A DNA stretch of 44,300 nt from a virus. Below, one piece after another: positions 11,385-44,170 of this stretch (positions within the stretch are counted from its first letter, which is position 1; the number at the start of each line of letters is the position of its first letter). The position numbers and the translations under genes are program-made. The notes below the pieces were generated by a model that worked only from the letters and a program-made list of their open reading frames with translations, made no database searches and was not told the origin of the DNA. The DNA lies in the IMG/VR virus record IMGVR_UViG_3300050138_000339, positions 1 through 44,300 of that record; one strand, 5' to 3'.

Positions 11385-11461
11385 ATACACTCCGTTCAGT
11401 CGCGGGTTAGAGGTTCGAGAGGTCATTGACGTTCGAGTACACGCCGTTCAGTCGCGGGTTG
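11385..11461. repeat. Direct repeat at the 3' end of the capsid gene
   Basis: The sequence CCGTTCAGTCGCGGGTT occurs at 11391-11407 and again at 11446-11462. The match extends a few bases further on the left with one mismatch (TACACTCCG versus TACACGCCG). The inner copy encodes NPRLNGVY inside the capsid protein. The outer copy, beyond the stop, still spells NPRLNGVY followed by a stop codon, but in another frame because the copies are 55 bases apart. This suggests that the capsid gene once ended at NPRLNGVY and that a short duplication or insertion gave it the present nine-residue extension. Confidence 0.7.
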
Positions 11462-12426
11462 TCCGACGCGCAGGCCAGGCCGACCACGTAGCGCGAGGTC
11501 TTTTCCAAGACGTTCGGCGTGTCGATCCAGGGGATGAAGTCGAAGCCCTTCTCTGCGGAGTAGCGATACTTCGTGTGGTTCGCGTTCACCCAGAACATGT
11601 TGTAGCCGACCGCCGTGCCGTTGGCGTACGTGTCGAAGTGATTGTCGCCGATCCACTGCGCGCCGAGCATGTGCGGGTTGGCGACGTAGGGATTCGCGCT
11701 GTCGCCGGGCGACACGCGGATCATCGAATCGAGCGTGAACATGTAGGACGCGACGACTTGCTGGTGGCCGAACATGTGCGTCGGCGAAGCATCGCCGACC
11801 ACGCAAGCCGCGTAGTTGCGGAGAATCTGGCCGCGCGAGGCGTCGTTGGTGGCCGTGCCGATGCCGGCCGTGGACAGCGCGATGACGTTGCCCTGCCATC
11901 CGGCAAACGAACCCGTGCCGAGCCGCGCGATGTTCGCGTACACGTCGTAGGTGTTGCCGTTGTCGCAGGCTTCGTAGATGCCCGTGAGCGGCTGACCGTG
12001 CTGGGTCGAACGGCCCTTGGTCTGCGAACAGGTGTCCGTGCCCAAAAGGTCCGTGAGCGAGCCGATCGCCGTTTCGATCTGCGTCGTCAGATTGTCCACG
12101 CGCATGTTCGGCCCGCGAACCAACTTGACGGTGATGTAGTCCAGGCTGACCGCACCCTGATACCAGGACCAGGGCATCGACGCAACGCTGCAGAGCGACT
12201 GCGGACCGCTGGAGAGGGTATCGTATTGGCCGAACGATTCGGCGGTGTTGTTCTTGTTGGTCAGGATGGGGAACGCGAGGAAGCGGCCTTCGTCGTGGCG
12301 CTCCGCGTTATCCCAAAAGACGCGAACGATGCGGTTGCCGATGAACACGGCATCCGAAACATACGGGCTGAAACTTTCGGCCAGGACGGTACTTAAATCG
12401 TCGAAGCCTCCCAAATTCGAAGGCAT
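11407..12426 (-). CDS. Major capsid protein
   Basis: The 339-aa protein has the features of a tailed-phage major capsid protein. An N-terminal segment (LAESFSPYVSDAVFIGNRIVRVF) is followed by FLAFPILTNKN, a RGPNMRVDNLTTQIETAIGSL stretch (about residues 103-123) typical of the spine region, and a GIYEACDNGNTYDVY segment. There are no membrane segments. The ATG at 12426 has GAGGA nine bases upstream. It follows the scaffold gene in transcription order (with an opposite-strand gene between), as expected for a head module. The C-terminus seems to have been extended by a short duplication. Confidence 0.72.
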   Translation of the reverse strand: MPSNLGGFDDLSTVLAESFSPYVSDAVFIGNRIVRVFWDNAERHDEGRFLAFPILTNKNNTAESFGQYDTLSSGPQSLCSVASMPWSWYQGAVSLDYITVKLVRGPNMRVDNLTTQIETAIGSLTDLLGTDTCSQTKGRSTQHGQPLTGIYEACDNGNTYDVYANIARLGTGSFAGWQGNVIALSTAGIGTATNDASRGQILRNYAACVVGDASPTHMFGHQQVVASYMFTLDSMIRVSPGDSANPYVANPHMLGAQWIGDNHFDTYANGTAVGYNMFWVNANHTKYRYSAEKGFDFIPWIDTPNVLEKTSRYVVGLACASDNPRLNGVYSNVNDLSNL

Positions 12427-12755
12427 ATGTGGTAGTCCTCAACATCTGGAAACGCTGCTGCGCCTCTACGGATGGAGTGCCGCGCGCCGTGGTGTGAGGT
12501 CCCTGTCGGGAGTGCTCTCGGCTCGGGGTCAATTCCGATTCTGGCTTTGGTTCGCGAGTGGTTGCTGCCGTAGCGGAGGTGGCTTTCGCGCTCTGCGGGC
12601 CGCTTAGTTCTTCTTGTACGCCCTGGTTTGGCTCGGCGTCAAGCCCCACTTGCTTGGGATGGGCGGTTCGGCTACAAAGAGAGTAACCCCAAAAATGATC
12701 CCGGGCCGCGACGCTCATCACGTCCGACCCGGTGGAAAGCGAAGTTACCGCCCTC
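12427..12755. other. Divergent intergenic region between capsid and winged-helix genes
   Basis: These 329 bases lie between two genes reading outward and are the natural place for promoters on both strands. I see a weak minus-strand promoter (separate entry) and the capsid ribosome site, but no convincing gene. A minus-strand frame here could end in LTPSQTRAYKKN, yet it has no acceptable start. A second TTGACC-CCGAGCC sequence near 12520-12535 resembles the TTGACG-CCGAGCC of the candidate promoter and may be a repeated control site. Confidence 0.4.
12613..12642 (-). promoter_or_regulatory. Candidate promoter for the capsid operon
   Basis: On the minus strand TTGACG (12642-12637) is followed after 18 bases by TACAAG (12618-12613), which resembles a sigma-70 promoter with a slightly long spacer. 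It would give a leader of about 180 bases before the capsid gene. It is a sequence match only, in GC-rich DNA where such matches are less common by chance. Confidence 0.25.
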
Positions 12756-13247
12756 ATGGCTATCATAGCCCGACCCATTCCTCCGCGTCAATCTGGACGC
12801 TATGCTCAAGTGGCCCAAGAGGCCCTGGCGATCCCCGAAGGCCCGTTTCGCGTGTTTGTCGTGCTCGCGCTTCACGCCGACCAGGCTGGTCGCTGCTGGC
12901 CGAGCCAAGAGACGATCGCTCGTCTCTCATTTTGCTCCATCGCCACGGTCCGCCGCAGGCTTGCATGGCTCGAAGCAAACGGATGGGCAAAGCAAATCAA
13001 ACGGCGACGACGGAGTACGGCAGTCTATGAAATCAAGACCGCTCACAGTTCTGCTCCATCAAGCCTCCAAGACCGCTCAACTGAGGCTTTAGACCGCTCA
13101 AAGCCATGCACAGTAAGATCGCTCACAGCTATGAGCGGCAGAACAAACCAAGAACAGACCATCTATAACAACGGTTCAAAAATCACCGACGAAGGCACGG
13201 AACGAGGGCTCCGTTCCCTCCGGGCCTTCGTGACGAAGCGTCTCTAG
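12756..13247 (+). CDS. Winged-helix protein, possible replication initiator
   Basis: The 163-aa product (ATG 12756; a GTG at 12732 would add eight residues) carries a helix-turn-helix of the HTH_36 type at residues 28-93, with CWPSQETIARLSFCSIATVRR and LEANGWAKQ. This domain occurs in plasmid and phage replication initiators, including lambda-O-like proteins. After residue 93 the sequence becomes low in complexity with repeated DRS, because the DNA there holds repeated 10-bp sites (separate entry). It is a lone plus-strand gene in a minus-strand head module and meets the scaffold gene with a four-base CTAG stop overlap. A transcription regulator is the main alternative. Confidence 0.55.
   Translation: MAIIARPIPPRQSGRYAQVAQEALAIPEGPFRVFVVLALHADQAGRCWPSQETIARLSFCSIATVRRRLAWLEANGWAKQIKRRRRSTAVYEIKTAHSSAPSSLQDRSTEALDRSKPCTVRSLTAMSGRTNQEQTIYNNGSKITDEGTERGLRSLRAFVTKRL
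13036..13190. repeat. Iteron-like sites plus AT-richer stretch, possible origin
   Basis: The 10-mer AGACCGCTCA starts at 13036, 13070 and 13091, with a one-base variant AGATCGCTCA at 13116 and an inverted core (TGAGCGG) at 13132-13138. The copies are 34, 21 and 25 bases apart. Just beyond, 13141-13190 has about 40 percent GC in a clearly GC-rich genome. Repeated initiator sites inside the initiator gene followed by an AT-rich unwinding region is the plan of the lambda origin inside gene O. The match to that plan is an inference; the repeats themselves are seen directly. Confidence 0.5.
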
Positions 13248-14638
13248 CCCGAAACGCCCGCCGTGACGAACGTCGCCGCCTCTTGGACGAACTGCCCCAA
13301 AGGCTTCAAACTGCCGTCCGCGTTGCGCGTGTTCGGCGGCCTCGGTGCCGGGGGCGGAGCCGTCTGCGTCGGAGCGCCTCCGCTCGCCGCCCGACCCGCC
13401 GCAAGCGCCTGCTGCCGCGCAAGCTCAACCTGCCGCTGATCGACCTGCTGCAGCGCCGCCGCTGCTGGGCTCGCCGTCGCGGCCAACCGCTCTTGCTCGA
13501 GCGCCTGCGCGCCCTGAGCGCCGAAGATGATCGCAGCCTTGAGCCCGTAGGAATCGACGTATCCCGCGCTTCTGGCGTACTCACACGCCTTCTGCCAATT
13601 CGGGTCGTTTGGACCCTTCCCGGGATCGTAGTAGCCCGGATACATGCGCGCAAGGTCGGCATGAGCCGCCTGCATCTGCGCCGCGACGTTCGCGTTCTGC
13701 TGCTGCTGCTGACGCGCGCTCTGCTCCTGTTGCGCTCGTTGCTGCTCGATCGTCGCAAACCGCTGGTCGTACCGCTGTTCGATTTGGTCGAAGCGACTGA
13801 GCACCGGAGCAAGGGCCGCATTGACGAGCGGGTCCTCAAAGAGCGGCTCGGTGGGCGCGCCGTTCTGCGGCGGCGCAAACTGCTGCTGCGGCGGAACCTG
13901 GCGCATCTGCGCTGCCTCTTGGACGGCGGCTTCCAGGAGCGGCAATCCGGCCTGCGCGCGCTGATAGCCACGCACGACGTAATCGCCGTAGGTCGGGTCG
14001 GCCAGGGCCATCTGGATGAGCGGCAAGATGTTCTTGAAGCGCCCATCGGCGATGAGCGGCTCGATGATGGGAGCGGCGTCCCCCCACTTCTGGCGCATCC
14101 GGTCGTAGTCGGCCCGGCGCGGAAAGCCGCGCTTGGCAATGTCCTTGAACTGCTTGGGGACGCGCACGGGCACCTTGAGGTCCAAGTCCGGGTCGTCTAC
14201 GTCGAACTGCTCGTATTCAGCGAAGGCGTCCACGATCTGCTGCGCTACGGCGTCGGCGGCTTGGGTGCCGGCCGCCTGCTGCGCGCTTTCGGTTGTCGCG
14301 GGAGCCGTGGCTGCATCCGCGGCGGCTTGCGCCGGGGTCTGCCCTGCGGCGGGCGTGGCCGTCGCCTGTGGGGTGCCTCCGGTCGTTTCGCTGTCGGCGG
14401 GCATCGCCACGCCGCCATCGGCAAACGCCGGGACCTTCGGAGGCGCAACGATTGGACGGCCCGTGTTCGGGTCGAGCGCCGTCGTCCCGCGCGAAAAGGC
14501 CGGGACCTCGGAGGCGGCAACCGCCGCCGCGGCGTCGGGCTGTATCCCGCGCTCGGTCACGATCTTCTCTTGGAGCGCCTTCGCGTGGTCGCGGATTGAC
14601 GGGAGGGGCTTGTCCTGCAGAGCGGCCTCATTTGCCAT
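13244..14638 (-). CDS. Scaffold-like protein
   Basis: The 464-aa protein is rich in Ala, Gln and Pro. It has a flexible N-terminal half, a charged segment (EYEQFDVDDPDLDLKVPVRV at about residues 141-160) and a long Gln/Arg/Ala helix around residues 295-335 (FDQIEQRYDQRF, IEQQRAQQEQSARQQQQQ) that probably forms a coiled coil. The C-terminus is Ala- and Pro-rich. This build, and the place between portal and capsid in the head gene order, fit a scaffolding protein that shapes the procapsid and then leaves. No protease motif was seen. The ATG at 14638 is clear. The gene ends inside the stop of the opposing winged-helix gene. Confidence 0.55.
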   Translation of the reverse strand: MANEAALQDKPLPSIRDHAKALQEKIVTERGIQPDAAAAVAASEVPAFSRGTTALDPNTGRPIVAPPKVPAFADGGVAMPADSETTGGTPQATATPAAGQTPAQAAADAATAPATTESAQQAAGTQAADAVAQQIVDAFAEYEQFDVDDPDLDLKVPVRVPKQFKDIAKRGFPRRADYDRMRQKWGDAAPIIEPLIADGRFKNILPLIQMALADPTYGDYVVRGYQRAQAGLPLLEAAVQEAAQMRQVPPQQQFAPPQNGAPTEPLFEDPLVNAALAPVLSRFDQIEQRYDQRFATIEQQRAQQEQSARQQQQQNANVAAQMQAAHADLARMYPGYYDPGKGPNDPNWQKACEYARSAGYVDSYGLKAAIIFGAQGAQALEQERLAATASPAAAALQQVDQRQVELARQQALAAGRAASGGAPTQTAPPPAPRPPNTRNADGSLKPLGQFVQEAATFVTAGVSG

Positions 14639-20960: not shown

Positions 20961-23000
20961 ATGTCCTCTAGTCTGTACAGGCCAGAAGAATCTCTCGATC
21001 TCCCCGGCTTCCTGCGTTGGAAGTTTGGAAGCGACGAACCGCCCGAAGGACAAGGCAATATCTGGCGGCTCGCATCGACAGCGCACGTTCATTCGTCCTA
21101 CCACTTCTTCGCGTCGAACTTCGCCTACGTCGCCGACAAGCGCGGCGAACTCACGACGCTCCAACCATTCGTCGGGCAAGCCATCCATCGCGTCACCCTC
21201 GACTCGCAACTGCGCGCCGGGCTGCCCGGACGCATGGCCGAAGTCAAGGCCCGCCAACTCGGCTGGACCGTCGAGAACATCGCCCGCGCGCTCCACTTCT
21301 GCCTCGATGAGAACAAACGCGCGCTCATCCTTGTTGACGACGAGGACGTTGCCGCAGAGCAAGCCACGCGCCTCGGAACGATGCTCAACGGCCTGCCCGG
21401 CTGGCTTCAGCCGATGCGCCGCATTCAAAATTTGAAACATCTGGTCTTCGATAATCCGAACCCGAAAGACCGCGCGCGGAATCCCGGCCTCAACTCCGCT
21501 TCGCAAATCACCGTGCCATCGTCGTTCCGAGGCGTCCCGCCCGGTTTCGTCTGCATTTCCGAGTACGCGCACATGGACGCCGAACGCCAGAATAACGTGC
21601 AAATCGGCCTAATCTCGGCCATGCCGCTCTCGCCGTTTTCCATCCTCATCATCGACACGACGCCAGCCGGAATCGACGACAGCTACTATCCGATGGTCAT
21701 GGAGGCCGTCGCCGACAATCCAAAGTGGTCCAAACGCATCGAGAACTGGCCTGGAGAACTAAGCGCGCAAGACGTGCTCAACGGTATCCTCGGCGTTCCC
21801 GACTGCGTTGCCAAAGGATACCCCGGCGTTATGGTTCCTGCGATCTGCCCGTGGCGCTTTCACGAAGAATACACCTGCCGCACCAAAAACAACCCGCGCG
21901 GCGAACTTCGCCCGCTCACCAAAGAGCATCGCCGCGAAACAGAATCCACCCTCGGCAAACTTTCGAAGTATGGCGGCGAGGAAGAGATCGACTACCGCGA
22001 CCGCTACGGCCTTTCAACCGAGCGCGCGTTCTGGCGTCGTCGCAAAATCGACGGCTACAAGTTGCCGACCGAGGAATCAAAACTACTCGCTTTCAGGCAA
22101 GAGTTCTTTTCCACGATCGAGAGCGCGTTCCAGGATACGGGCGCGGCTCCGTTTGATCGAGCCTGCCTCGATACGCTCGGACGCCAAGAGCGCACTCCGG
22201 TCGCAGTCGGCCTCTTCGAAGAAGAAAACAAGTTCGCACATTGGGAACTCAACGGCTCGGATATAACAAGCGTCCACCGCGACCGCAACCCGTGGCACGA
22301 AATACGCATCTACGCGCCACCACAGCCTGGCGAAAAGTATACGATGGGCATCGACACGGACATTGCCTACGAGTCGCCCGACTCCGACGCTACGGTCGCG
22401 CAAATCGTGCGATTCCGGGATCGCAAAGTCTCCGCCACCTATGAAGCGCGCGTCCCGTCCCACTTGCTCATGCACCAATTTTACTACCTCTACAAGTGGT
22501 ACTTCAACTGTTACTACGCGATCGAAACTGCCGGCATGGGCTACGACCTTGTTCGGCGCTGCATCGACCGAGGCATGGGCAACGTCCACTACTACAAACG
22601 CTACGACGCCGACTACCCCGAGCCAACGAAGTTCCCCGGCTGGGAAACCAACCGCATCACGCGCCCGCAGATGGACCAATGCCTAACCGAAATGATTTGC
22701 CACCGCAACCCCGATAGCGGGAAGGCAGAGCCCCTCATCAACGTCCCCGACGCCAAGACGCTCAAGGAAATCCGTGGGCTGTCGCGCACTCCGAGCGGCG
22801 CGTTCAAGTCAGCGCGCGGTAAAGACGATCACGTTGACGCGCTCGACATTGCGTTGCTCATCGCGGCAGACCCGTACTCGGGGCTCATTCGCCGCGAACA
22901 GGAACTTGAGGAGCAGCGTAAGGCCGAGTTCGAGGCATCGTTCCGGTGGATTATCGGAGGCAAGAGCCAGCGGAACCGCCCCGACCTCGCTCGGATTTAG
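20961..23000 (+). CDS. terL: Terminase large subunit
   Basis: The 679-aa protein is the DNA-packaging motor ATPase and nuclease. The ATPase part has a variant Walker A (KARQLGWT, residues 96-103), a Walker B with catalytic Glu (FVCISEYAHM, Glu201) and the coupling motif IIDTTPAG (about 230-237). The RNase-H-like nuclease part has Asp465 (MGIDTD), Glu522 (IETAGMG) and Asp622/623/626 (KDDHVDALDIA). GGAAGG lies ten bases before the ATG. It is the only large plus-strand gene in a minus-strand region, with just 42 bases to the divergent neighbour. Its stop overlaps the next convergent gene by four bases. Confidence 0.92.
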   Translation: MSSSLYRPEESLDLPGFLRWKFGSDEPPEGQGNIWRLASTAHVHSSYHFFASNFAYVADKRGELTTLQPFVGQAIHRVTLDSQLRAGLPGRMAEVKARQLGWTVENIARALHFCLDENKRALILVDDEDVAAEQATRLGTMLNGLPGWLQPMRRIQNLKHLVFDNPNPKDRARNPGLNSASQITVPSSFRGVPPGFVCISEYAHMDAERQNNVQIGLISAMPLSPFSILIIDTTPAGIDDSYYPMVMEAVADNPKWSKRIENWPGELSAQDVLNGILGVPDCVAKGYPGVMVPAICPWRFHEEYTCRTKNNPRGELRPLTKEHRRETESTLGKLSKYGGEEEIDYRDRYGLSTERAFWRRRKIDGYKLPTEESKLLAFRQEFFSTIESAFQDTGAAPFDRACLDTLGRQERTPVAVGLFEEENKFAHWELNGSDITSVHRDRNPWHEIRIYAPPQPGEKYTMGIDTDIAYESPDSDATVAQIVRFRDRKVSATYEARVPSHLLMHQFYYLYKWYFNCYYAIETAGMGYDLVRRCIDRGMGNVHYYKRYDADYPEPTKFPGWETNRITRPQMDQCLTEMICHRNPDSGKAEPLINVPDAKTLKEIRGLSRTPSGAFKSARGKDDHVDALDIALLIAADPYSGLIRREQELEEQRKAEFEASFRWIIGGKSQRNRPDLARI

Positions 23001-23857
23001 CCCGCGTCCTTGCGCCGGATCGCGTGAAAGAGGCCGATGGTGTCACTGGCAGGCTTCAACGTGACGGCGAAACCTTTGGCGTAGAGAAAGTCCATGAGCG
23101 CGCCGGAATCGACCGGGAGCGGAAGGTTCTGCATTTCGGGCGCATCGGTCGGAACGATATGGTACTCGCCTGCGATCTCCTGAATGCGATCGAGCAACGT
23201 CGAGGTATAGAGGAGCGGCCATTCGCCGCCCTCGCAGTCAAGTTTGAGGAACCGCACCGATTCGTGCGGCGCGAGAATCTCGTCAAGCGAACGAGACTCG
23301 ACTACCGGGCCGACCACGCCAAACGAGTTCCACGCGCCGTTGTAGTGGTACTCTGGTGCGCGATGCTCGTCGCTTCGCACGACGGCGCAATGGTAGTACG
23401 CAACGCCGTCGTCCATGCCCGCAAGGTTCTGCTGCCCGGCCTCGACATGCCACGGGTCGATCTCGAAGGCGTAGATGGAGCGTGAACCCATGCGGTACGC
23501 GAGGTGGGCGAACGAGCCGATGTGCGCGCCAACGTCAATCACTACATCGTCTGCCGCGAGGGCCGGGCAGTTGTACTCGTTCTCGACGGCGACGGCCATC
23601 CAGGTATCTTTCTCCGACTGCGTTCGGTACGCGCGCGGCTTGAGGTGCGGCGGCCCGGCCCAGTTGCGGTCGAAGGCATCATCGCCGCCTCTCAGTAGTA
23701 TTTCTAATTCTTTGCGACACCACTCTTCAAAACAGGCACGAGCGATCTCCAACTTTGTTTCGATGCTTTCGCATAGTTTCCGAGACGTTTGGTTATCGCG
23801 AAGCTGAATCTCGGGGATAATGATCTCGTCACGATAGACCTTCCAATTCTCGCTCAT
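22997..23857 (-). CDS. FkbM-family SAM methyltransferase
   Basis: The 286-aa product has the SAM-binding motif VVIDVGAHIGSFA (105-117), an acidic strand end FEIDP (131-135) and the FkbM hallmark VRFLKLDCEGGEW (about 208-220). FkbM enzymes usually O-methylate sugars or other small groups. The ATG at 23857 overlaps the upstream glycosyltransferase stop (ATGA). It is the last gene of the glycosyltransferase run and would cap or tailor the sugars they add. The 5' part (23690-23800) is poorer in GC than its surroundings, which may mark recent gain. Confidence 0.8.
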   Translation of the reverse strand: MSENWKVYRDEIIIPEIQLRDNQTSRKLCESIETKLEIARACFEEWCRKELEILLRGGDDAFDRNWAGPPHLKPRAYRTQSEKDTWMAVAVENEYNCPALAADDVVIDVGAHIGSFAHLAYRMGSRSIYAFEIDPWHVEAGQQNLAGMDDGVAYYHCAVVRSDEHRAPEYHYNGAWNSFGVVGPVVESRSLDEILAPHESVRFLKLDCEGGEWPLLYTSTLLDRIQEIAGEYHIVPTDAPEMQNLPLPVDSGALMDFLYAKGFAVTLKPASDTIGLFHAIRRKDAG

Positions 23858-24591
23858 ACTGCTACCTTCTGCGCCCACTCGCGCATCATGTCGAGTTTCG
23901 ATTCAAGCGAACCGCCTCGCGCCGTCACAATCCAATCGCCATTCTTGTACGTGTCGGGATGAACGAAACCGACCTCGGTGTTCGGATAGCAGTTGCCGAA
24001 CGTGGCGCTGAACGGCGGCGTGTTCATTAGCCGCGTCATGCTGTCTTGGTCGGAGATTCCGTTCGGCTCGATCTTCCCGTGCCGCACGTTGTTCTCGATC
24101 GCCGCGCGTTCGTAGGCGTAGCGCAGGTGCTTCTCGGTTACGTCGTCCGTGCGCGCAATCCAAAGCCCAGAGAGCGGGCCGTCGTCGCCGTAGGTCCACA
24201 GGAAACGCGGTTCAGTCGGCGGCCAATGCTTGTAGGCAAACCCCTCAATACGCATTTCACGCACAAGCACATCATCAATCTTTGGCTCCATGTTCATAAA
24301 CAGGCTGTCTATGTCCAGGCTCATCACAATGTCAGCGTAGCCGCGCAAGTCGTGGTACAGGCTGAAGCGAACCTTGTCGCCGAACGTCTCAGGCCGCGAT
24401 GGGTCAAGATGAAACGCGCGCGGATACATCGTGAGAGAGTACCCGTGCCGCTCGCAATACGCCGCCCAATTCGGGCGCGCAATCTCGGCCAGCGGAGCGT
24501 AAGCGTCGTTCCAGCAACCGAACAACGCTACGCGCGGGCCGCTGTACCCTGCGGGGATCGTCGTGACCTGCTCGCGATAGAGTTCGCTCAT
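23854..24591 (-). CDS. Glycosyltransferase, GT34-like (1)
   Basis: The 245-aa protein resembles the galactosyl/xylosyltransferase group GT34. It has a first strand VALFGCW, the motif YCERHGY (45-51), and a metal-binding DID in ADIVMSLDIDSLFM (residues 93-95), which would hold Mn and the nucleotide sugar. The later part has GPLSGLWIAR, a probable acceptor or sugar site. No signal peptide is present, so it acts in the cytoplasm. It is coupled to its neighbours by ATGA overlaps and is related to the genes at 24836 and 25492. Confidence 0.7.
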   Translation of the reverse strand: MSELYREQVTTIPAGYSGPRVALFGCWNDAYAPLAEIARPNWAAYCERHGYSLTMYPRAFHLDPSRPETFGDKVRFSLYHDLRGYADIVMSLDIDSLFMNMEPKIDDVLVREMRIEGFAYKHWPPTEPRFLWTYGDDGPLSGLWIARTDDVTEKHLRYAYERAAIENNVRHGKIEPNGISDQDSMTRLMNTPPFSATFGNCYPNTEVGFVHPDTYKNGDWIVTARGGSLESKLDMMREWAQKVAV

Positions 24592-24839
24592 TCGATGCCC
24601 TCATGCACTCGCGCGTCGTAGTACGCCCTCGAAGGATAGACCGGGAACGGGCCTTCTTTCTTACCGCGAATCGACGGAAACGGGACGCCGTGGCACATGC
24701 TCGTGAACGAACGCGCTTCCTCGACGGCGACGTGCGGATGCTCCACAAGCCAGCGCGTCAGCACGTCGGCCTGGTCCATGCAGTAGCCGTGCGAGAGGCG
24801 AACCTTAAAGGCGAGGTCGTTCTTTTCTCCGTGCGTCAT
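24588..24839 (-). CDS. Hypothetical 83-aa protein in the glycan island
   Basis: It starts at ATG 24839 and overlaps both neighbours by four bases. The protein is soluble, His- and Tyr-containing (HGEKNDLAFKVRLSHGYCMDQ; PVYPSRAYYDARVHEG). I do not recognise it. Because it sits inside the glycosyltransferase run with the same coupling, a role in the same pathway, for example as a small partner, is likely but unproven. Confidence 0.45.
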   Translation of the reverse strand: MTHGEKNDLAFKVRLSHGYCMDQADVLTRWLVEHPHVAVEEARSFTSMCHGVPFPSIRGKKEGPFPVYPSRAYYDARVHEGIE

Positions 24840-25495
24840 TTCGCCATCGCAACATACTCGCGCAGTTTGTTCGTGCGCGTCGGCTCCTCGACGCCGGCCA
24901 GGTGCAAAATGAAGTCGCCAGGCTCGTAGCGGTTGACGTAGTTCCCGTACTCGCCAAAGTTCCAACCCTTCAAGGCGTAGTCGTTGCAGTTGAATACTTT
25001 GCCAGGGCACTCGCGATAGATTTCCTTGTGCGGCGACTTGATAGCCGTCTGCACCAAGCCCTCTTGGTCGGCCCACCCACTTGCTACGCTAATCGACGTT
25101 GCGACGGTCATAAAAAGCGAAGCCTCGGGCGAGAAGCGCGCGATGAACACGCCTGAGTTGAGGCCGTTTACATCGACGCCAATGAGGTAGTGAACGCTGC
25201 GCGGCATGAGCGCGTACACGATCTGTTCGATGCGAATGTCAGAGTTCAGAATCGCCGCGTCGGTATCAACCCATACGAATACGTCGTCAGGTCCAAGCCG
25301 CTCAGTCGGCGTGGGAAGAACGGCGCTGAACGCCTGCTGAAACATGGCGACCTTGCAGGCGTCCTTGTCCGTTCGGTTTCCGTCGTAGAAGAAGTAGTAG
25401 CCGTGTTTTTCGCAATAGTGCTTCAGGGTTGGCAGCGTGATCGCCGCGAGGTCGGCGTATTCCGGTCCGTGCGCCGTGCAGATAACCACCTTCAC
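24836..25495 (-). CDS. Glycosyltransferase, GT34-like (2)
   Basis: The 219-aa protein starts with GTG at 25495 (GTGA overlap). It shares the plan of the gene at 23854: a first strand VVICTAHG, YCEKHGY at 27-33, and the metal-binding DTD in VFVWVDTDAAIL (77-79). The segment GLNSGVFIARFS corresponds to the sugar-acceptor site of the family. It is shorter than most GT34 enzymes, so some C-terminal elements are reduced. It would transfer a hexose or pentose from a nucleotide sugar; donor and acceptor cannot be told. Confidence 0.68.
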   Translation of the reverse strand: MKVVICTAHGPEYADLAAITLPTLKHYCEKHGYYFFYDGNRTDKDACKVAMFQQAFSAVLPTPTERLGPDDVFVWVDTDAAILNSDIRIEQIVYALMPRSVHYLIGVDVNGLNSGVFIARFSPEASLFMTVATSISVASGWADQEGLVQTAIKSPHKEIYRECPGKVFNCNDYALKGWNFGEYGNYVNRYEPGDFILHLAGVEEPTRTNKLREYVAMAK

Positions 25496-26265
25496 GGCAG
25501 AAGCCCCAGGCGCTCGACGTACTCGTTTGCGATCTCGATGCGCCGCGCAATCGGTAGCGCGCTCAGGTGAAGCGCAAGCGATTCTTTCTCATCCCATTCG
25601 TATATCTGACGAGCACGTTTGGGCTCACGGTACGTGTCGGGAACCATCGCGCACAGCGTTCTCACGCTATGGAACCACACCATGTACGAGTACGGCGGCG
25701 TCGCCAAGAAGAAGCGCATTGAGAGTTGGTCGGACCAGTCATCGGTTTGGAAGTACCGCTGCCCGGCGTTCGCGTTCGCCCAAGCAAAGCCGAGCGTGTA
25801 CGCCGTGCGCCGCATCATAATCACCGTCGCATGGAGCCCGTTGCAATCGTGTGTGAGAATTATATCCCCAAGCGTCGAGTCGGGCGCATCGGTGCCCTGG
25901 CGCTTCTCGTTGAAAAACTTTTCAAGCGGCGTTTCGTAGTCCGTGATGAGCAAGTCGGCGTCGAACCAAACGACCCAATCCCACTCCTCGCGGCAACTGT
26001 CCGGGTCAAGGTAGTGCGTGAACAGTCGGAACTTGATGAAGTATTTGATCGGAAGATACTCGACCTTGTTCTCGTTCGTCTTGGTCGAGCGAGCATGGTC
26101 GTAAATGTCGGACACGTCTAGGCGGTACGTGTACCCCTGGCGTTCGCAATACTTGCGATGCGTTGCTCCGGTTATGGCATGGAGGTCGTGCCAGGTTGGC
26201 CCCGTCTCGCCAGGACGGCGCGGCGGGATACTGCACAGAACCAGGACGCGCGCTTTCTCAGACAA
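25492..26265 (-). CDS. Glycosyltransferase, GT34-like (3)
   Basis: The 257-aa protein starts with TTG at 26265 and overlaps the upstream gene by eight bases. It has the first strand VLVLCSIPP, the shared motif YCERQGY at 39-45, NKVEYLPIKYFIKF, and the metal-binding DAD in WVVWFDADLLI (102-104). Together with the two genes downstream it forms a set of three diverged relatives, each with Y-C-E-(R/K)-(H/Q)-G-Y before a DxD. Likely use is successive addition of sugars to a virion or host-surface target. Confidence 0.68.
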   Translation of the reverse strand: MSEKARVLVLCSIPPRRPGETGPTWHDLHAITGATHRKYCERQGYTYRLDVSDIYDHARSTKTNENKVEYLPIKYFIKFRLFTHYLDPDSCREEWDWVVWFDADLLITDYETPLEKFFNEKRQGTDAPDSTLGDIILTHDCNGLHATVIMMRRTAYTLGFAWANANAGQRYFQTDDWSDQLSMRFFLATPPYSYMVWFHSVRTLCAMVPDTYREPKRARQIYEWDEKESLALHLSALPIARRIEIANEYVERLGLLP

Positions 26266-27154
26266 GGCGCTGCGCCATTTCGAACTTCCGCACCTTGCAG
26301 ACGTTTTCGTACTTGAGCAGTTCGACTTCGATTGGCGAATGGTAATCGGCGCTGGTGTCCGTGTCGCTCGTCACGCGGTAGTCCACTCCACGAAAAGCAT
26401 AACCGCGCGAATTGAACGTCCTCGGCGTAGCGGTGCAAACGATCTCGGGCCGCGCGCTCTCGTCGTACACGTCGTGTTCGCCGCGCACCGCTGCCGCAAG
26501 CGCCTGTCCCCCGGCTTCCGAGCCGACCCACGCGCGGCATGATGCGAGCATATCCAAGTATTCGTAGATGCTCTGCGGCTGATAGGACGCAGCGGTGATC
26601 GGCGGCGCGTGAAGGGCGACGTGGCGGGGATGCGTGATGAGCAGCATCGGCGCGTTGCGGAATCTGCCGCGCATCATCTTGACCGCTTCGCCCACGCCGC
26701 GAATCCCGATATGCGACGACACCGCCGCGAAGTCGAGCAGCACCGTGCCGCTCAAGTCCATGCGATGTTGCTGCGGCTCGTAGTAGATTTTGGGCGCGAT
26801 GCCGTAAGGCGGCGGGAGCGCGTGGGCGCGTTCCATCGCCTCGATGCTGCGGTATCCGGGAAGGCGGTTTGCGATCTCGTAGAACAGCCCTTGGCGGACG
26901 TAGCCTGCGTTTGGCTTCTTATCGCTTAAGCCTTTGATGTGCGGGTTGCGCGACCACAGCAACTCATAGATTTCCGGGTTGCTCGTCGTGCTGTCTTGGT
27001 CGAGGTACACGTCATAGCCGAGCGCGGCGAAGCGTTCGGGGAGGGTCGAATAGCCGCTATGGTCGCCAAGCCCAAGGAGCGGCCCCGCAGTGAGAACGAT
27101 CGGGTTCGTCGGTAACTGTGGCTCCAGGATCGCCGCGAGTTCGGCTTTGGTCAC
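26258..27154 (-). CDS. Glycosyltransferase-like protein (fourth GT)
   Basis: The 298-aa product (GTG 27154, overlapping the zinc-ribbon TGA) has no clear DxD in the usual place. It has a two-domain look: a strand-turn start LLGLGDHSGYSTLPERFAAL followed by GYDVYLDQD, and a later region with GSEAGGQALAAAVRG (about residues 209-225) that resembles the donor-site of GT-B enzymes such as the heptosyltransferase group (GT9). It is therefore probably a GT-B-type transferase, or a glycan-binding relative of one. It is the first gene of the island in transcription order. Confidence 0.5.
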   Translation of the reverse strand: MTKAELAAILEPQLPTNPIVLTAGPLLGLGDHSGYSTLPERFAALGYDVYLDQDSTTSNPEIYELLWSRNPHIKGLSDKKPNAGYVRQGLFYEIANRLPGYRSIEAMERAHALPPPYGIAPKIYYEPQQHRMDLSGTVLLDFAAVSSHIGIRGVGEAVKMMRGRFRNAPMLLITHPRHVALHAPPITAASYQPQSIYEYLDMLASCRAWVGSEAGGQALAAAVRGEHDVYDESARPEIVCTATPRTFNSRGYAFRGVDYRVTSDTDTSADYHSPIEVELLKYENVCKVRKFEMAQRLV

Positions 27155-27318
27155 GCCGCGCGCTTGTCTTTGTGGCAAGCGATGCACAACTCGACTCGTC
27201 CGCGCGCATCGAGCACCAGGCGCTTTGCCTGGATGGGATGCCTCGTTCCGCAGTCGGCGCAGACGAATGTGCGCGCCGGGCGCTTGAGCGTTTGCAGCGC
27301 CACGCCGCTCATGCTCAT
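27151..27318 (-). CDS. Small zinc-ribbon protein
   Basis: The 55-aa product has two CxxC pairs, CADC (20-23) and CIAC (46-49), enclosing a short basic loop, which is a zinc ribbon. The ATG at 27318 overlaps the upstream TGA; a second ATG six bases on is the alternative. Such proteins bind nucleic acid or protein partners. It links the virion-gene part of the operon to the glycosyltransferase run by four-base overlaps on both sides. Confidence 0.55.
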   Translation of the reverse strand: MSMSGVALQTLKRPARTFVCADCGTRHPIQAKRLVLDARGRVELCIACHKDKRAA

Positions 27319-41953: not shown

Positions 41954-42234
41954 GGTTTGGACGCTTCCTTGCCGGGATGCTGCGTTTTGATGCGCCGCTT
42001 TTCCCGCGCTCCACCAGCGGCTTCGTCAGCCTGTGCCTGCGCGCGATCATCGTCAAGCAATCCAGTTTCTTCTTCCAGGACTTCCGTCATTTCATCGAGC
42101 CATTCATCTTGCGTTTGTGGAAGAAAGTCGTGCGTGACCGCCTGAATCTCTGATGAGAAGCGATGATGTGCAATACTGTGGCCCGCGCCATAGATGCAAC
42201 GCTCGCCTTTTTCGTTGGTTGCCGTGCAGGTCAT
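41950..42234 (-). CDS. Hypothetical 94-aa acidic protein
   Basis: The protein has a short Cys/His start (MTCTATNEKGERCIYGAGHSIAHH) that may bind zinc, then an acidic middle (EWLDEMTEVLEEETGLLDDD) and a Lys/Arg-rich tail. The acidic stretch could mimic DNA or bind a basic partner. It is coupled by ATGA to the ATPase gene. No function is known. Confidence 0.45.
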   Translation of the reverse strand: MTCTATNEKGERCIYGAGHSIAHHRFSSEIQAVTHDFLPQTQDEWLDEMTEVLEEETGLLDDDRAQAQADEAAGGAREKRRIKTQHPGKEASKP

Positions 42235-43466
42235 TGGCGAGCCCGCCGTTCTTCCTCGTCCTCGGGGTACTTCGGCGTGGCCGCGTTCTTGAAGTCGAGT
42301 TTGCGCGAAACGAGCGCGATCGCCTTAACGAAGTCCTCGCGGGTCCAGGTCGTGCTTGACTTCATGCCCTCGCCAAGCGTCGTCTGGAAGGCGTGGCGCA
42401 TTCCGTCGCTCCACTCCAACTCGTCGCAAATCGCCATGTACTGTCGGCGCAGCGTATCGAGCGTCGGCAGCGGCGCGTTCTCGGCGTTCGCTGCGGGCGG
42501 CTCAGAGGGGGCGACGTTGCTCTGCTCGGCCTTCACGAGCGCGTCCAGGGCCTCGATCACGACGGTCGTGCGCCATTCCAGGCCCTGCGCGGTCGCCCAG
42601 GTCCGTAGCGCGTGGAGCATCTTCGGGCGAGCATCCAGGCCAATGACGCCGACCTCGCGCGCTCGGGCGAGCATGGCGTCCGTCGCAGAGGCCTGCTGCT
42701 GCGCGCTTGACACGGGCTTAGTTCCTTCTGGCGCTTCAAGGACGCCGGCGTCACGCGCGATTTGCTCCTCGTCGGTCATCCCAGTCTGTTCTGCGACCCT
42801 CCCGTCCGCGAAAAGCGACGCGAGCGTTTTCCAAGAAAAGTCCTCAATTTTCTGACCAGCCTTGAGAGTGCCACTTCGGCTCTTGACGACCGTCGCGCTC
42901 GTCCGCTTCCCGTCGTTTCCGTTGATTCGGAAAACAAAGTCAAAGGCGTGAGTCGTCTTTTTGTCGCCGTCAAACTTCTCACCAATCGCAACGAGGTCGT
43001 TCGGCTTGACCTTGTTACCGTCAACCATTGTGCCAGCGCGAGCGTACTCGGTGCTAATCCAGCCGCAACATACGACGTGCATCGGAAGCCGGAAGTACAG
43101 TTCGTCCAGGAGAGAGGAGAACTTGCGCTTGATACGGCCCCAATCCAGCGGGCGTAGGTCTTCTCGTTCACGGGATGCCAGGTTTACCAGGCCGTTGTAT
43201 ATCGTTGTCAGCGAGTCGATCACCAAGGTTTCGCACGGCACGTTCCCCTCACGCACTTTGTGAACGAGATCGCGCACATCGGCGTAAGACTTTGTTGAAA
43301 CCGCCGTGAAATCAAAACGGTCAGCGAACCAGTCGATGCTTCCCTCTGCGTCAATAACCGCAGGCTTCGGGAAAGTCAGCGCAGCGTGTGTCTTGCCTGA
43401 GCCTGCTTCACCAAGGAGCAATACTTTCGCGCGGCGGTGGCGCGGAGCGACCTTCGCAAACGTCAT
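42231..43466 (-). CDS. Sak4-like recombination ATPase (AAA_24)
   Basis: The 411-aa protein starts at ATG 43466 (ATGA overlap; the longer form is a shadow). Its first 200 residues form a RecA-type ATPase with Walker A GEAGSGKT (19-26) and Walker B LVIDS (81-85). The layout is that of the phage AAA_24/Sak4 group, which promote single-strand annealing and work with the phage single-strand binding protein. The second half is helical, acidic and Ala-rich and may contact partners. With the nuclease next to it, it forms a likely recombination pair. Confidence 0.7.
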   Translation of the reverse strand: MTFAKVAPRHRRAKVLLLGEAGSGKTHAALTFPKPAVIDAEGSIDWFADRFDFTAVSTKSYADVRDLVHKVREGNVPCETLVIDSLTTIYNGLVNLASREREDLRPLDWGRIKRKFSSLLDELYFRLPMHVVCCGWISTEYARAGTMVDGNKVKPNDLVAIGEKFDGDKKTTHAFDFVFRINGNDGKRTSATVVKSRSGTLKAGQKIEDFSWKTLASLFADGRVAEQTGMTDEEQIARDAGVLEAPEGTKPVSSAQQQASATDAMLARAREVGVIGLDARPKMLHALRTWATAQGLEWRTTVVIEALDALVKAEQSNVAPSEPPAANAENAPLPTLDTLRRQYMAICDELEWSDGMRHAFQTTLGEGMKSSTTWTREDFVKAIALVSRKLDFKNAATPKYPEDEEERRARQ

Positions 43467-44170
43467 GCTGGCACTTCCTCTCGCTCTAGCGCGGCGTTGC
43501 GAGGGCAACGGGATTGGCAGTACGACTTGCCGCTGCCGGGCTTCCCGCAGCGCCATTCGTCCCCGGTCGGCGGCTCCATCGCAGGCGGTTCTGGGCTCGC
43601 CGCTATAGTCTGCACTCGCTCGCGCGCAACCTCAACGGCCTCGCGCCAATCCTCCGTGCGGAACCAATGCGGCTTGTAGCCCGTGACTTTGCCGAAGCCG
43701 AGCGTTAGCACGATCTCAGCAAACCACGGAGCGCCGAGGCGCAGCGCGTAGTCCGCCGTCTTGAGCGCATGACCGCGCTTCCAATCAGGAGCCTTCGCCT
43801 TCGTGGTCGTTACGTCGAACACGCAGAACGTCGCGCCGTCTTTTTCCAAGCGAACGTCGGGATGCGCGCTCCAGCCGTCGCTTGTTTGAATCTCGCCGCC
43901 GATTACGACGGAGTAGCCCTGCGTCACGAAGCAATCGAACGCGCTGGCAAGGTAGGCTTCAACGGCGTAACCCATGAGGAACGAGTCGCGCGAATCTTGA
44001 TCGAAGGGCAACTGCGGCTCACCGTGGATGCGCGCGTAGGTTGCGAAGTCGCACCCCGCGAGGTCGCTGGAATGGAGGAGCAGTTCGTCTCCGCGCGAGG
44101 CTCCGACGCGAGCGAAGAAGGCGTCGAGCGCGCCCTGAAGGTCGAGCGGCGCGGCTTCCGGCGCGGTCAT
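43463..44170 (-). CDS. Cas4/RecB-like nuclease with four cysteines
   Basis: The 235-aa product (ATG 44170) fits the PD-(D/E)XK group. It has Cys40 in the N-terminal helix (LLHSSDLAGCDFATY), Glu71, HPD (Asp105), then VFDVTTTK (Asp119, Lys124) and a helix with Tyr141. At the C-terminus CGKPGSGKSYCQSRC adds Cys208, 218 and 222. One Cys at the start and three at the end is the Fe-S pattern of Cas4 and AddB-type nucleases. Such an enzyme would resect DNA ends for the Sak4-like protein. The catalytic acid is Asp119 where Glu is usual. Confidence 0.65.
   Translation of the reverse strand: MTAPEAAPLDLQGALDAFFARVGASRGDELLLHSSDLAGCDFATYARIHGEPQLPFDQDSRDSFLMGYAVEAYLASAFDCFVTQGYSVVIGGEIQTSDGWSAHPDVRLEKDGATFCVFDVTTTKAKAPDWKRGHALKTADYALRLGAPWFAEIVLTLGFGKVTGYKPHWFRTEDWREAVEVARERVQTIAASPEPPAMEPPTGDEWRCGKPGSGKSYCQSRCPRNAALEREEVPA

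Follow-up and report, generated by a model that had tools for sequence, protein, structure and literature searches.

A short gene for a winged-helix protein, located among the head genes of an uncultured tailed phage, carries four direct repeats within its own codons and A-rich DNA directly after them. Lambda-type origin anatomy is well supported for this arrangement. Gene and sites are probably a compact cassette of lambda-O type in which an initiator is combined with its own iterons and an unwinding stretch, and on which the host replisome would load. The window analysed is the entire virus record of 44,300 nt (44.3 kb), and the predicted origin is located on it to within about 150 bp.

Repeats and low-GC DNA within a winged-helix gene

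Portal, large terminase, major capsid and tail-spike genes of the record are recognised by PHROGs, and no terminal repeats are present in the 44.3 kb. The HTH_36 gene is the single plus-strand gene between the capsid gene and a scaffold-like gene, the latter being named from position and composition only. It overlaps the scaffold-like gene by about 4 bases at its end, and an alternative in-frame GTG start is possible at 12732. The coordinates are collected in Table 1.

Table 1. Features of the HTH_36 gene and its surroundings, in positions of the window
Feature	Position	Strand	Remark
Capsid gene	11407-12426	minus	neighbour of the HTH_36 gene
Gap from capsid gene to scaffold-like gene, holding the cassette	12427-13243		817 bp here
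163-aa winged-helix (HTH_36) replication-initiator-like gene	12756-13247	plus	ATG start; Pfam and PHROG matches
Predicted winged-helix DNA-binding domain, codons	12783-13034	plus	about residues 10-93, AlphaFold2
Iteron 1, AGACCGCTCA	13036-13045	plus	exact
Iteron 2, AGACCGCTCA	13070-13079	plus	exact
Iteron 3, AGACCGCTCA	13091-13100	plus	exact
Iteron 4, AGATCGCTCA	13116-13125	plus	one mismatch to AGACCGCTCA
Dyad CGCTCA-N6-TGAGCG	13120-13137		iteron 4 and inverted core; read from the sequence and the inverted-repeat listing
Low-GC stretch rich in A, putative DNA unwinding element	13138-13190	plus	lowest-GC 50-mer
Tail codons, including the short predicted C-terminal helix	13191-13247	plus	AlphaFold2
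Scaffold-like gene	13244-14638	minus	other neighbour of the HTH_36 gene

The four iterons differ by one mismatch in 40 bases and are spaced 34, 21 and 25 bp apart, which corresponds to approximately three, two and two helical turns. They lie in codon phases 1, 2, 2 and 0; as the copies occupy three codon phases, a peptide repeat cannot explain them. The inverted core (TGAGCG, 13132-13137) pairs with the CGCTCA of iteron 4, the only iteron to form the full dyad; the iterons of ori-lambda are imperfect dyads. When up to two mismatches to AGACCGCTCA are allowed, the densest 120-bp stretch contains four sites, all at the array, with a maximum of two elsewhere. A 10-mer occurring three times within 110 bp was produced in none of 100 second-order Markov simulations of the window, and the sole other real case in the window is the low-complexity GCCGCCGCCG.

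Directly downstream, the GC content of positions 13140-13189 is 38% against a window mean of 62.6%, the lowest of any 50-mer and tied with a region near 22464. The plus strand is A-rich from 13139 to 13190, with 25 A and 6 T. No DnaA boxes with up to two mismatches were found in 12401-13400, and promoter and terminator scans returned nothing usable.

What the first-pass annotation of this DNA had observed is real. The three exact copies, the one-base variant and the inverted core that it described are confirmed by their coordinates (13036-13137), and the stretch of about 40 percent GC noted directly after the repeats is the 38% segment given above. The gene is the sole HTH_36 gene of the 44.3-kb record, as had been stated. 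A count of the 10-mer elsewhere had also been proposed; neither strand of the whole 44.3-kb record holds a further exact copy of AGACCGCTCA, so the 10-mer is not frequent.

The 163-aa protein matches the Pfam family HTH_36 with an E-value of 2.4e-12 (46.9 bits, against a curated cut-off of 25). Its PHROG matches are to replication-initiation families, with phrog_1032 being the best (2.2e-12), followed by phrog_270 (4.9e-11) and phrog_391 (7.3e-11). Along phrog_1032 the similarity extends as far as profile position 131 of 281, and positions 132-281 have no counterpart in the protein, from which it follows that the C-terminal half is missing. Judged from these profile matches, the protein appears to be a member of the HTH_36 / PHROG O-like replication initiator family that lacks this half. 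The missing part is the one that recruits the helicase, which is why the protein does not amount to a complete lambda O. No claim is made that it belongs to the lambda O family proper; that Pfam family is absent among the matches up to an E-value of 1, and the O-like families come from PHROG only.

A winged-helix fold is predicted by AlphaFold2 from an alignment of 21 sequences, with the rows from the phage-record collection left out. The pLDDT exceeds 90 at residues 21-80 and is 73-79 at the domain edges, with predicted helices at residues 10-23, 28-39, 51-58 and 62-74 and strands at 78-81 and 90-93. The segment for which the iterons and the A-rich stretch code, residues 102-147, is predicted to be disordered, in agreement with the earlier remark that the protein loses its fold-like character at the repeats. 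A weak helix is predicted with low confidence at the C-terminus (residues 148-162). Foldseek searches of viral models returned phage helix-turn-helix proteins, including a replisome organizer and the replication protein O of Escherichia phage Min27, and searches of the PDB returned generic winged helices of MarR and ArsR type regulators. No close homologue of the protein was found, and a protein scan of genome contigs gave no relative.

Distant HTH_36 initiators and the lambda origin

As a close homologue of the gene was not found, distant members of the family were chosen for comparison. HTH_36 initiator genes were gathered through protein-motif searches of viral contigs and phage records; with the winged-helix core compared at 60 percent identity, they form 27 clusters. 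The search motif lies in the protein, and thus the panel was not selected for repeats. Iterons were scored as copies of one 10-mer, allowing up to one mismatch, over the 260 bp that adjoin the winged-helix codons on their 3′ side. At least three copies were present there in 23 of the 27 clusters and at least four in 20, while neither the winged-helix codons nor a control segment contained four or more in any cluster. The background from tiles of the same loci was 5 with at least four copies out of 563 (Fisher p about 6e-27, for clusters that consist of related proteins and are hence not fully independent). Iteron sequences vary between the clusters. In L003, repeats of 21 bp can be seen that the 10-mer scan did not pick up.

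The spacings in the panel are quantised, with 39 of 73 falling at 21-25 bp, 13 at 31-36 bp and 9 at 15 bp. A long-short-short order resembling the 34/21/25 of the window recurs in at least six clusters (L023, L034, L258, L260, L267 and L308), the spacings seen being 31/22/23, 32/22/22, 31/22/22, 33/22/23, 35/22/22 and 36/23/22. In 21 of 23 clusters (Wilcoxon p 1.7e-6), GC content drops from the winged-helix codons to the 60 bp after the iterons. As a rule, HTH_36 phage initiator genes have iterons immediately 3′ to their winged-helix codons and DNA of lower GC behind them. The 34/21/25 array fits this architecture and is therefore read as a lambda-type embedded origin together with its initiator. 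The original proposal of a lambda-O-like origin in the winged-helix gene is strengthened by this rule in distant family members and by the matches to phage initiators. Since embedded iterons, quantised spacing and lower GC are the rule in these initiators, origins should be readable from hundreds of unannotated phage contigs.

An alignment of homologues had been suggested; distant homologues keep the architecture, with drift in the sequences of the sites as well as of the protein. The iteron sequence of the window is not significantly common to other clusters. An ACCG core that the window appeared to share with iterons of other phages did not hold up and was dropped (p 0.13; against L034, p 0.41). 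Pairs of AGACCGCTCA gave many matches in viral and genome collections, none of which carried an HTH_36-like gene by our own HMM; hence the exact iteron is not a common signature.

Iterons inside gene O, together with an AT-rich stretch, are the described layout of lambdoid origins (PMC7466680). The annotated iterons of lambda (NC_001416) served as the positive control; they lie in the same part of gene O, with starts 20, 24 and 23 bp apart. The origins of lambda and the Stx phages (PMC7466680, PMC3985674) share with the window an initiator gene with an N-terminal DNA-binding part, four iterons in the codons that follow (about 20-24 bp apart in lambda), an AT-rich stretch directly after the iterons, and sites that exist at the DNA and not the peptide level. 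The window differs from lambda in iteron sequence and in its first spacing, which at 34 bp is about one turn longer. It also differs in that its protein has neither a C-terminal domain nor a Pfam match to the lambda O family, and in that its gene has no adjoining P-type loader and resides among head genes instead of in an early operon.

The HTH_36 / PHROG O-like initiators (phrog_1032, phrog_270 and phrog_391; SfII and YeP1; L023, L034, L258, L260 and L267) resemble the window in their N-terminal domain, in the place and quantised spacing of their iterons and in the lower GC afterwards. Most are 210-360 aa long and possess a C-terminal part, whereas the protein of the window has 163 aa and stands alone. 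Some other panel proteins are also short, and short initiators with iterons and AT-rich DNA occur in the L001 cluster (124 aa), L332 (124 aa) and L310 (163 aa). The L001 cluster, which has 16 members, is represented by a winged-helix gene of 124 aa (L001:5968-6440); its 22-bp iterons extend across the stop codon, with DNA of 18% GC after them. As in the window, the protein consists of the winged helix only, the iterons are found at the gene end and very low GC follows in L001. Unlike the window, which has none, the L001 array is flanked by two perfect inverted DnaA boxes, TTATCCACA. A search of titles and abstracts in the literature yielded lambdoid embedded origins, with no survey of HTH_36 initiators and no origin as accessory cargo.

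Capsid-sharing relatives and the insertion gap

The HTH_36 gene is absent from all 21 capsid-sharing relatives searched, several of which are fragments. These include G001, a 53.9-kb relative that is probably complete given its 99-bp end repeat. It may be deduced from these 21 relatives that the phage group does not need the gene. P0003 of G001, a gene with weak HTH_36/RP-C-like character, carries no iterons.

Ten relatives without an insert have a gap of 175-251 bp between the capsid and scaffold-like genes. The same gap is a variable insertion spot, with different inserts in L335, L341, L348, L352 and L354. By eye, L335 holds an HNH-type endonuclease and L009/L341 a transposase-like ORF; in L348, L352 and L354 the insert is an opposite-strand ORF of 353-387 aa. 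Given the relatives without the gene, their shorter gap and the other inserts found there, the gene and origin are most simply explained as a cassette inserted at a variable spot.

Two of the relatives show that embedded iterons occur in this phage group too. G004 (L020:2603-3379, minus strand) and G018 (L355:3527-4273, minus strand) each have an unclassified gene, unrelated to the HTH_36 gene, beside a DnaB-type helicase gene. The two products, which are initiator-like, are 29% identical, and that of G004 has no PHROG match. The iterons follow directly on about 50 N-terminal codons. In G004, CGCCGACGC is repeated seven times, mostly 11 bp apart, and is followed by AT-rich DNA; in G018, AACGGCAGG recurs at spacings of 12, 23 and 23. 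This embedded-iteron gene with its DnaB gene looks like the normal replication module, with the array of the window as a displaced one. Also in G004, at L020:7558-7602, an 11-bp unit, TGTGAGGGTGT, is repeated in tandem at least four times.

Proposed mechanism and competing readings

The first-pass annotation suggested that the gene would mark the replication start, and this claim fared less well. The GC-skew profile that it had called for has no turning point at the array, and the capsid-sharing relatives are without the gene. Searches of the 44.3-kb record, which may be incomplete, gave no DnaB-type helicase (DnaB_C) and no DNA polymerase A. No helicase gene or helicase loader (P) lies beside the HTH_36 gene, whose neighbours are the capsid and scaffold-like genes, and an IstB-like match falls below the cut-off.

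By analogy with lambda O, the winged-helix protein would bind the four AGACCGCTCA-type iterons in its own linker codons, and the bound iterons would be wrapped into an O-some-like complex. This complex would then strain the adjoining A-rich DNA until it melts, allowing the host replisome to load and forks to be established. As the C-terminal half is missing and searches nearby gave neither a helicase nor a loader nor a DnaA box, helicase loading would have to come from the host, from a separate phage factor or via the short C-terminal helix. The cassette itself would have been inserted into the variable gap among the head genes. The array may function as the working replication start of the phage, as opposed to a captured or interfering origin. 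A more tentative suggestion is that a self-contained origin cassette of ~0.6 kb, composed of the DNA-binding half of an O-like initiator, the iterons and the unwinding stretch, is mobile and enters the head-gene region of phages as accessory cargo. It could act there as a second origin loaded via host factors or as interference with rival replicons. The short orphan form of the initiator poses the question of which host factor loads the helicase without a loading domain.

A cut-down initiator captured with its sites from another replicon could, instead of firing an origin, titrate or block the origin and initiator of a rival and so bring about exclusion. The missing helicase-recruiting half and the absence of a loader nearby suit such a decoy, as does its place in an accessory gap like other cargo; moreover, extra lambda iterons on a high-copy plasmid have been reported to impair lambda plasmid replication (PMC3985674). 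The low-GC unwinding stretch has been kept, however, and a decoy does not need it. Other phages, too, have short initiators combined with iterons and AT-rich DNA (the L001 cluster, L332 and L310), and no rival replicon with such iterons and an HTH_36 gene appeared among the AGACCGCTCA matches, all of which makes the decoy unlikely. Slightly more doubtful is a functionless relic of a complete O-like gene that lost its C-terminal half on transfer. Its length below that typical of the panel, the lack of any close homologue found and the scaffold-like gene abutting the gene end agree with decay, whereas the intact ORF, the retention of all four iterons with a single mismatch among them and the confident winged helix predicted by AlphaFold2 speak against it.

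The MarR and ArsR type matches in the PDB would also suit a transcription factor that binds repeats in its own gene to control expression, although any winged helix gives such matches. The sites reside in the 3′ half of the gene, away from a promoter position, the family matches are to replication initiators, and the sites with their low GC have the layout of an origin, so that an autoregulatory operator array is improbable. A chance or codon-driven repeat is barely credible. Other four-copy 10-mer clusters do exist in the window, but these are at low-complexity, largely in-phase coding repeats; the iterons span three codon phases with near-perfect identity, were not matched in the simulations and stand where the family predicts an array, and the panel result makes chance very unlikely. 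The initiator-plus-origin cassette is thus the reading preferred here.

Other parts of the record also differ from or resemble G001. A Sak4-like annealing protein is encoded at 42231-43556; G001 instead encodes an Erf-like protein together with a Cas4-type exonuclease (L018:10590-12391), and recombination modules appear to be swapped within the phage group. Beside the terminase gene, at 22997-27187, FkbM methyltransferase and weak glycosyltransferase-34-like genes form a cluster that is common to the window and G001.
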